The notes below the pieces were generated by a model, which saw nothing but the letters and a program-made list of their open reading frames with translations, ran no database searches and was not told the origin of the DNA. Shown piece after piece: positions 1,656 to 27,423 of a DNA stretch of 39,848 nucleotides; the first letter of the stretch is position 1, and every line of letters starts with the position of its first letter. The DNA comes from an uncultured Trueperaceae bacterium (GTDB lineage Bacteria > Deinococcota > Deinococci > Deinococcales > Trueperaceae). The position numbers were made by a program, and so were the translations under genes. Location of the stretch: the NCBI GenBank assembly GCA_913057685.1, contig CAJXOA010000020.1, forward strand, positions 1 through 39,848. Reading direction: 5' to 3'.

Positions 1656-2147
1656 GTGAACTTCGAGGTCGGCGACGCCGTCGTGTACCCCGCGCAAGGC
1701 GCCGGCACGGTCCTGGACGTCGAGACCCGCGACGTCCTCGGCGAGCGCCACACCTACCTGAAGATCGGCTTCGTTCGCGGCGGCATGGAGATGCTCGTGC
1801 CGCTCGCGAAGGTCGCGGACGTCGGCCTTCGCCCCGCCGTCGGTGCGAGCGAACTGGACCGCCTCGAGGACGTCCTCGTGCACGAGGAGGTCCGCCTGCC
1901 CAACGCCTGGCCGCCCCGCCACCGCGCCGAACAGGAGATCCTCGACGGGGGCGACGCCTACGCCCTCGCGCGCCTCGTGGGGACCCTCACGCGCCGCGAC
2001 CGGGAGAAGGGCCTGGCCTCCACCGAACGGGACCTGCTGGAGGCCGCCAAGGCGCGCCTCACCGGCGAGTTCGCGGTGGTCTCCGGCGCGTCGCTCGACG
2101 ACGCCGCCGCCCGCCTCGACGCCGCCCTCGCCCGCCGCGAGGCGTGA
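1656..2147 (+). CDS. CarD/CdnL family transcription regulator (CdnL-type)
   Basis: This 163-residue protein has the CarD_CdnL_TRCF architecture: an N-terminal RNA-polymerase-interacting Tudor-like domain (residues 1-60, beginning NFEVGDAVVYPAQGAG) and a helical C-terminal domain (70-163). The helical part has the LxSTERDLLExAK pattern seen in Myxococcus CdnL and mycobacterial CarD. Such proteins bind the RNA polymerase beta subunit and stabilise open complexes at promoters, especially rRNA promoters. The length excludes the TRCF helicase. The GTG start at 1656 is supported by the leaderless -10 box 7 bases upstream and by the domain beginning there. The stop overlaps the rsmA start as GTGA, so both genes probably form one transcript. 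A second, distinct CarD protein is encoded at 26920. Confidence 0.92.
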   Translation: MNFEVGDAVVYPAQGAGTVLDVETRDVLGERHTYLKIGFVRGGMEMLVPLAKVADVGLRPAVGASELDRLEDVLVHEEVRLPNAWPPRHRAEQEILDGGDAYALARLVGTLTRRDREKGLASTERDLLEAAKARLTGEFAVVSGASLDDAAARLDAALARREA

Positions 2148-25765: not shown

Positions 25766-26688
25766 GCGCGGCTCCCTCGCGGGCGGACGGCGGTACGCCG
25801 TCCGCCGCCACCGTCACGGCGGTCCTCGTCGCGGTCGTCGCCGCCATCAGCCTCGGGGCGATCTTCGCGCGCCTCGCCGAGGCGCCCGGCGCGGTCGTGG
25901 CGCTCTGGCGCATGGCGTTCGCGTCGCTGTTGATCGTGCCCGCCGGCATCCGGGGGTTGCGCCGCGCCCCACCGACTGCCGCCAGCCTCCGCCCGGCCCT
26001 CCTCGCGGGGCTGCTGCTCGGCGTGCACTTCGCGACGTGGTTGACCTCCCTCGCCTACACGACGGTCGCCGCCAGCGTGACGCTGGTGACGACCGTCCCC
26101 ATCTGGGTGGCGCTCGCGCGCTGGTGGGGCGGGACGCCGCCGACGCGCGGCGTGCTGGTGGGCTTGGTCCTGGCGATCGGCGGGGGCGTCGCGATCGGGC
26201 TGGGCGACCTGCAGGGCGGCAGCGCGCCGCTTTTGGGCGACGCCCTGGCGTTGGTCGGCGCCTGGTCGGCGGCGGGGTACTTCCTGCTCGGGCGCCGCGC
26301 GCAACGCGCCGGCCTGTCGACGTCGGGCTACGCGACGATCGCCTACCTCGTCGCCGCCGTCGTCCTCGTTCCCCTCCCCGCGATGCTCGGTGCGGCGTAC
26401 GTCGACTGGCCGCTGGCGACGTGGGGGTGGATCCTGGCGATGGCGCTCGCCCCGCAGTTGGTGGGGCACGGCGGCCTGAACTGGGCCAACCGCCATTTGG
26501 ACCCGACCGTCGTGGCGACCGTGACGTTGCTGGAGCCGATCGGGGCCGGCGTCCTCGCGTGGCTCGTGTTCACCGAGATCCCCGGGACCGGGGTGCTGCT
26601 CGGGGCGCCGGTCCTGCTGGCCGGGGTCGCGCTGGTCGTGCGGTACCGGCGGCGGGAGGGGCCGGGCGCCGCCCACCCCGCCCCCTGA
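25762..26688 (+). CDS. EamA/DMT family transporter
   Basis: The 308-residue protein has about ten hydrophobic helices arranged as two EamA repeats, the fold of drug/metabolite exporters. The first repeat includes LWRMAFASLLIVPAGIRGL and the second ends with TLLEPIGAGVLAWLVFTEIPG, a typical EamA motif. The substrate is unknown; members export amino acids, nucleosides or drugs. It begins with GTG overlapping DUF423 and is the last gene of the psuG run. Its codons are G-ending, unlike the C-ending psuG-to-ATPase block. Confidence 0.92.
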   Translation: MSAAPSRADGGTPSAATVTAVLVAVVAAISLGAIFARLAEAPGAVVALWRMAFASLLIVPAGIRGLRRAPPTAASLRPALLAGLLLGVHFATWLTSLAYTTVAASVTLVTTVPIWVALARWWGGTPPTRGVLVGLVLAIGGGVAIGLGDLQGGSAPLLGDALALVGAWSAAGYFLLGRRAQRAGLSTSGYATIAYLVAAVVLVPLPAMLGAAYVDWPLATWGWILAMALAPQLVGHGGLNWANRHLDPTVVATVTLLEPIGAGVLAWLVFTEIPGTGVLLGAPVLLAGVALVVRYRRREGPGAAHPAP

Positions 26689-26742
26689 GCCGTCCTGGAC
26701 GCGGCACCGGCCGCGCGACCGACGGCGAAGGATGGGGGTTCG

Positions 26743-26751
26743 TGCTACACT
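26743..26751 (+). promoter_or_regulatory. Extended -10 promoter upstream of carD
   Basis: TGC-TACACT ends 7 bases before a GTG that opens a 52-codon frame leading into carD. The extended -10 form and the 7-base spacing match the leaderless promoters of the window. A second hexamer TACCCT at 26835-26840 could be a weaker alternative start. Confidence 0.6.
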
Positions 26752-26758
26752 ACGGGGC

Positions 26759-26917
26759 GTGACCGAGCAGCGGGTGCGCACGTCGCGATTCCGGGTCCGC
26801 GTGCGCCACGGTCCCTCGAGGCCCTCGCCCTGCCCTACCCTACGTCGGGACGACGCCCCCGTCGGGTGCGCCTGCACGGCGCACGTCGACCGCTCGCCCC
26901 CGCGCGACGAGGAGTGA
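26759..26917 (+). CDS. Possible leaderless leader ORF before carD (52 codons)
   Basis: A GTG at 26759 lies exactly 7 bases after the TACACT box and opens a 52-codon frame whose stop falls three bases before the carD GTG. The product is Arg- and Pro-rich with three cysteines and matches no family I recognise. Its codon use is not convincing as a normal protein. It may be a leader peptide coupling translation to carD, or chance in a GC-rich leader of about 160 bases. Placement is the only evidence. Confidence 0.3.
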   Translation: MTEQRVRTSRFRVRVRHGPSRPSPCPTLRRDDAPVGCACTAHVDRSPPRDEE

Positions 26918-26919
26918 AC

Positions 26920-27423
26920 GTGGACAAGGCCAGCAAATTCAAGAACGGCGACCAGGTGGTCCTCCCGCCGTACGGCGTCGGCATCGTCTCCGGAACGACG
27001 ACGAAGACCGTCGCCGGCACCGACTTCACGTACTACCAGGTCGACTTCCCGAACGGCACCTCCCGCGCCTACGTGCCGGTGCACGCCCCGCAGGAGGCCG
27101 GCCTCCGTGCGGCGTTGACGAACGACGAGGTCCAAAGCGTCCTCGAACGCCTCACGCACGGTCGCCTCACCCTCCCCAAGCAGTGGGCCGCCCGCCACCG
27201 CCGCGTCACCGACATCCTCACGTCGGGCGACCCCTACCAGATCGCGACGCTCGCCAGCGAACTCCGCCGCTGGGACCTCGAGCGCGGCCTGCCCGACCTC
27301 GACCGGCAGGCGTACCGGCGCGCCCTCCGCCTCCTCGCCGGCGAGATCAGTGCGGTGCTGGACGTCACGACCGAGGAGGCCCGCAGCATGATGGAGGTCG
27401 GCGAGGACGAAGTCCTCAACTGA
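26920..27423 (+). CDS. carD: CarD family transcription regulator (Thermus type)
   Basis: This 167-residue protein is the counterpart of Thermus CarD, which binds the RNA polymerase beta protrusion and wedges the upstream edge of the promoter bubble. The N-terminal RNA-polymerase-binding domain begins KNGDQVVLPPYGVGIVSG and includes YYQVDFPNGTSRAYVPV; the DNA-binding helical domain contains LPKQWAARHRR and RGLPDLDRQAYRRALRLLAGE. I place the start at GTG 26920, with GAGGAG five bases before it; GTG 26914 is possible and would overlap the upstream stop. It differs clearly from the CdnL-type protein at 1656. It lies next to, but divergent from, the rpoBC end of the ribosomal block. Confidence 0.95.
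   Translation: MDKASKFKNGDQVVLPPYGVGIVSGTTTKTVAGTDFTYYQVDFPNGTSRAYVPVHAPQEAGLRAALTNDEVQSVLERLTHGRLTLPKQWAARHRRVTDILTSGDPYQIATLASELRRWDLERGLPDLDRQAYRRALRLLAGEISAVLDVTTEEARSMMEVGEDEVLN

Follow-up and report, generated by a model that had tools for sequence, protein, structure and literature searches.

CarD is an RNA polymerase factor which promotes rRNA synthesis in mycobacteria. The classical trp and his attenuators have a leader frame whose coding part forms one hairpin, with another following the stop. Leaderless small upstream open reading frames (uORFs) have been described in mycobacteria; they open with an RTG where the transcript is predicted to begin, and an ordinary gene with its own Shine-Dalgarno sequence follows them (PMC4633059). 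The Mbox leaders of M. tuberculosis combine an upstream ORF with Rho-dependent termination in a structured leader (PMC12810186), and the control of mycobacterial carD has been described to involve an antisense RNA and the Clp protease (PMC8820732). In Deinococcus deserti, up to 60% of genes may have leaderless mRNAs, whose translation is enhanced by CA repeats close to the start (PMC9031893). No leader frame before carD was found in the titles and abstract openings of the literature searched, which is weak evidence of absence since subscription journals were mostly uncovered.

The carD locus considered here lies in a stretch of 39,848 nucleotides, the whole of which is referred to as the window. 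The gene itself (26920 to 27423, plus strand, GTG start) encodes a transcription factor, and its identity is secure, as both CarD Pfam domains were matched (CarD_C, 2e-14; CarD_TRCF_RID, 1e-9). The window has another CarD-like gene at 1659 to 2120 (plus strand), with 33% identity to this one, and two such matches were present in most genomes of the family. Upstream of carD, the plus strand carries an extended -10 element, TGC-TACACT, at 26743 to 26751 (TGC, 26743 to 26745; TACACT, 26746 to 26751), followed by the seven-base spacer ACGGGGC (26752 to 26758) and a frame of the leaderless type (26759 to 26917) which opens with GTG (26759 to 26761) and runs for 52 codons to a TGA (26915 to 26917). 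Direct reading thus confirmed the seven-base spacing and the 52-codon frame that the preliminary description had reported. The gap to carD, given there as three bases, is two bases (AC), position 26922 being the end of the carD start codon. The frame is contained in a longer, ATG-started frame (26732 to 26917), and the carD Shine-Dalgarno sequence GAGGAG (26909 to 26914) lies within its final codons. Consistent with the earlier statement that the product has no family resemblance, the 52 amino acids gave no Pfam match. The GC content of the window leader is 76%, and 83% of its dinucleotide shuffles also open at least 18 codons, so that an open frame in the window alone is unremarkable.

To place the frame among relatives, the upstream region of carD was taken from all 39 genomes of the window's family, representing 17 genera; CarD is present in all 39 and in 61 of 61 relatives. 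The element TGNTANNNT followed by GTG was found upstream of carD in 37 of the 39 family genomes, with a spacer of 7 bases in 30 and of 6 bases in 7, and in these 37 leaders the pair sits 121 to 214 bases upstream of carD. A -10 element 6 to 7 bases before an RTG, the spacing expected of a leaderless start, was therefore seen in the window and in 37 of the 39 family genomes. The 37 leaders were searched with GTG and never with ATG, and none needed ATG; at other -10-like sites before frames of at least 100 codons, GTG occurred 37 times and ATG 24 times. Two genomes were left out of the 37-leader counts. L022, from the window's genus, keeps TGCTACAAT without a GTG there, retains hardly any leader and uses ATG as its carD start, and in L035 the motif is present before a CarD with a longer N terminus. 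Across the family, carD starts with TTG in 32 of the 39 genomes, with GTG in 4 and with ATG in 2, one being unresolved. About 20 bases upstream of the -10 element, where a -35 box would be, most relatives carry a GTGCA element (genus-weighted, G 0.86, C 0.81 and A 0.87), which is absent from the window at 26720 to 26742 (L001) and from its nearest relative (L002).

The spacing had also been likened to that at leaderless genes, and it recurs at other candidate leaderless genes of the window's own genome, with 15 TGCTANNNT-N7-GTG sites versus 2 for the reversed control pattern. Sites were read in the correct strand for 8 of these 15 and for 10 of 21 in genome G016, and 5 of the 8 own-genome sites read open plausible long gene frames. 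A start inside the leader at TACCCT (26836 to 26841) was considered and rejected, as this element is not conserved in the nearest relative, which reads CATCCT at the aligned place.

All 37 family leaders keep the frame open over 18 codons or more, against 25.2 expected, and its length was 21 to 30 codons in 27 of 37, against 4.3 expected, this band having been chosen after the lengths had been seen. With one leader per genus, at least 18 codons were open in 16 of 16 (about 9.5 expected; p about 1e-4), and 10 to 12 of the 16 frames were 21 to 30 codons long (about 2.1 expected). Relatives thus keep the promoter-spaced frame (37 of the 39 family genomes) but not the sequence of its peptide. In g16, the indels found in the frame span three bases each, L011 and L012 are separated by a 2-base gap inside the frame, and L008 has a net +1 shift and a lost stop, its frame running beyond the carD start. 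Synonymous-biased substitutions, the check put forward in the preliminary description, were not found. The comparison covered 23 pairs from within genera with identities of 70% or more, which are not independent of one another and do not include L001/L002. Their in-frame changes comprised 92 synonymous and 196 others (32% synonymous), and the two alternative frames gave 30% and 25%. A functional peptide was rejected, the codons being without constraint.

The nucleotides gave a different result. In eight within-genus pairs, the window's pair excluded, identical bases were found at 464 of 589 leader positions in the frame and 441 of 535 after it, versus 433 of 691 four-fold sites in carD, with p = 4e-10 for the frame and 1e-14 for the part after it (the leaders are related to each other, so these and the other p-values are too small and overstate significance). 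Frame bases were significantly above four-fold sites in six of the eight pairs, with no difference in L004/L010 and L032/L050. Since the nucleotides are constrained beyond four-fold sites and the codons are not, the family leader is under selection as RNA or DNA and not as a peptide.

The first 58 leader bases folded better than their shuffles (mean z of -1.92, with 34 of 41 leaders below -1), and the mean z was -0.29 for sequences just upstream (35), +0.21 within carD (37) and +0.38 at 27 other promoter-like sites. The 41 leaders tested were the 37 family leaders, L035, L037, L042 and L043. The last three belong to two other families of the order and were those with the motif among 13 loci from other families of the order (L037 to L049); all three have the promoter-GTG pair and a significant 5' hairpin, designated P1. 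L040, a looser match, was left out of the tests and, when checked afterwards, had a z of -1.36 for its first 58 bases. The P1 helix has its 5' arm near base 9 and the end of its 3' arm near base 41, and its p value was at most 0.05 in 24 of the 41 leaders and at most 0.1 in 32, with 37 different 5' arms represented.

Leader bases 59 to 116 also folded well (mean z of -1.37). The linker from base 43 to the stop is poor in G (G 0.17, C 0.41), with G rising to 0.34 after the stop (p = 5e-6 in 30 of the 37 leaders, seven with fewer than 15 bases after the stop, including the window's, being left out); over all 37 leaders the G content of the linker is 0.20. A second hairpin, P2, was assessed in the 24 short-frame leaders; a long frame or an extended leader kept 13 of the 37, including the window's, out of this count. 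The stop lies at most 10 bases from the P2 foot in 14 of the 24 (versus 22% of shuffles), P2 ends 0 to 9 bases upstream of the Shine-Dalgarno sequence in 18 (versus 45%), and P2 was better than all eight shuffles in 11 (2.7 expected). Column covariation within two genera was weak, being seen in 1 of 12 and in 2 of 35 pairs. Rfam gave no match at gathering scores in 16 loci, no leader match in six loci up to E = 1, and none in window positions 26500 to 27100 up to E = 5. Together these data suggest that the carD upstream frame is part of a leader RNA conserved in the family, in which the start signal and the predicted folds are kept and the peptide is not.

We tentatively favor, while stopping short of calling it probable, a model in which carD is preceded by a structured 5' leader RNA whose upstream frame is leaderless and neutral in sequence, and in which passage of the ribosome rather than the peptide would gate carD. 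According to this model, carD would be transcribed from the extended -10 promoter, with the mRNA 5' end probably at or beside the GTG. The first 121 to 214 bases would consist of P1 (about bases 9 to 41), an unstructured G-poor, C-rich linker and P2, whose 3' foot would adjoin the carD Shine-Dalgarno sequence and its weak start codon, which is TTG in 32 of the 39 genomes. A ribosome would load at the 5' GTG without a Shine-Dalgarno sequence, open P1, cross the linker and halt at the foot of P2; it may then open P2, or bridge or restart across the P2 base, leading to carD initiation. In the window's genome and its nearest relative, where the stop lies two bases before carD, the coupling of frame to carD would be a direct stop and restart. 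Ribosome passage is favored over a peptide because the start and the openness of the frame are kept and its codons are not, and because the stop tends to fall by the base of P2, which adjoins the carD ribosome-binding site. Counting against gating, a P1 hairpin in bases 9 to 41 would be expected to hinder leaderless loading, P1 is not significant in L001 to L003, the frame is not strictly kept, covariation is weak, and L022 is without the leader. Further points against it are that P2 outdid every shuffle in only 11 of 24 leaders, that two of the eight pairs show no constraint when taken singly, that the window's leader shows none relative to L002, and that Shine-Dalgarno accessibility barely shifts.

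The preliminary description had suggested a leader peptide whose translation exposes the carD ribosome-binding site. The leader itself stands, with the promoter-spaced frame in 37 of 39 genomes, a GTG specific to carD and a stop that tends to the P2 foot; the conserved peptide and the simple unmasking do not. Over 37 leaders, the mean unpaired probability of the Shine-Dalgarno sequence was 0.43 in the whole leader versus 0.49 once a ribosome occupied the stop, so accessibility hardly changes, and simple unmasking is not supported; the window's values were 0.34 and 0.55.

The window's own copy is indicated by these comparisons to be a derived variant of the family leader, its frame apparently lengthened until it touched carD. 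The P1 position (26773 to 26807, plus strand; arms 26773 to 26779 and 26801 to 26807) is not above chance here (p = 0.32), and P1 was likewise not significant in L002 (p = 0.52) and L003 (p = 0.60), with L036 of the same genus at p = 0.025. A C-rich stretch within the frame (26808 to 26846) is the counterpart of the relatives' G-poor linker; between base 43 and the stop, the window leader contains G 0.31 and C 0.48 and, unlike most relatives, is not G-poor. The putative P2 position covers 26847 to 26899 (leader bases 89 to 141) and ends 9 bases upstream of the Shine-Dalgarno sequence. For this long frame, direct coupling to carD and a relic appear about equally probable. It is a serious possibility that the leader of the window's genome is such a relic, without constraint and with its 52-codon frame open by chance at 76% GC. 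Frame identity between L001 and L002 is 97 of 153 bases (63%) versus 74 of 100 at four-fold sites (74%; p = 0.10), their frame changes are 17 synonymous and 39 others, P1 is not above chance and the GTGCA element is missing, as noted above, and L022 of the same genus has lost its leader. Opposed to this, L001 and L002 share the promoter, the GTG, the frame length and the stop beside carD, and the comparison covers a single close pair. Over this pair, the window leader showed no measurable conservation beyond promoter and start codon.

For the family leader, the main rival to ribosome gating is protection from termination. Translation of the frame may shield the C-rich, G-poor linker from Rho; in lineages of lower GC content it may instead stop P2 from acting as an intrinsic terminator. 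Without translation, the transcript would then end before carD. The linker composition (C 0.41, G 0.17 in 30 of 37 leaders) agrees with this, as does a Rho RNA-binding domain in 34 of 39 genomes, the window's included, and M. tuberculosis offers a precedent for pairing upstream frames with Rho (PMC12810186). Furthermore, a hairpin with a T-rich tail occurs in 15 of 41 leaders and was unmatched by any of ten shuffles in six of these (L004, L015, L018, L019, L020 and L042). However, such a hairpin is missing from the other 26 leaders, including the window's, and the use of Rho is judged from composition alone. We regard attenuation of this kind as somewhat unlikely.

An RNA-only leader is a little less probable again, and we consider it unlikely. 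Here P1 and P2 would stabilize the mRNA or bind a factor, the GTG would simply be the first transcribed bases, and the frame would be a by-product. The constraint is equal within and after the frame, regardless of codon position, as such a leader would have it, and in L042, outside the family, the promoter, the GTG and P1 are present with a frame of only 10 codons. In the window's own genome, moreover, the 21 bases TGCTACACTACGGGGCGTGAC of the carD promoter, GTG included, recur exactly before secA (G000:C6:41312-41332, locus L138), where the ATG start lies 61 bases after that GTG. The family secA promoters nevertheless argue the other way. Of 30 secA loci compared, a start was assigned in 28 and an extended -10 element in 27, and a GTG followed 6 to 7 bases on in only 2 of the 27, both from the window's genus, suggesting that the GTG is a feature of carD and not a habit of such promoters. 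The GTG as a mere promoter habit is thereby weakened, while the identical 21 bases before the own-genome secA keep that idea alive. The openness and length of the frame, both above chance in the family, also stand against an RNA-only leader.

Returning to ribosome gating, a more specific form of it would have the neutral leaderless frame in its 5' hairpin gauge free ribosomes, the contest between P1 and ribosome loading at the GTG deciding CarD synthesis and ribosome supply thereby feeding back on the transcription machinery; we find this form distinctly unlikely. A leader peptide that responds to one amino acid, as in trp or his, is most improbable, as its position and size fit but no residue run common to genera was seen by eye and there was no synonymous bias.

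If ribosome gating is correct, a general RNA polymerase factor would be under leaderless-translation control through a leader RNA which keeps its start, frame and folds and discards its peptide, offering a clean, testable case of control through ribosome passage alone. The lineage is a relative of Deinococcus deserti, in which leaderless mRNAs abound, and this would be a kind of carD control unlike the mycobacterial antisense and protease routes.

Compared with known systems, the carD leader resembles the trp and his attenuators in having a hairpin in the coding part of the frame and a second one after the stop, and differs from them in having no amino acid run and a T-rich tail in only 15 of 41 leaders. 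With the mycobacterial control of carD it would share post-transcriptional control of the same gene family, although that route, in the available portion of the report, consists of antisense RNA and proteolysis, with no leader frame described (PMC8820732). The Mbox leaders are similar in their structure, their short frames and the possible masking of a pyrimidine-rich stretch by ribosomes; as presented in the accessible text, they differ in being a metal-sensing riboswitch with a conserved peptide, whereas the carD leader has no known RNA family or conserved peptide (PMC12810186). The mycobacterial leaderless uORFs are alike in consisting of a short RTG frame before a gene with its own Shine-Dalgarno sequence, the 5' end being predicted in both. 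Their conserved examples, as far as that account extends, keep their amino acids (cysteine-rich), whereas the carD-leader peptide is not kept, and the putative carD leader frame belongs to another phylum and lies within predicted RNA hairpins (PMC4633059).
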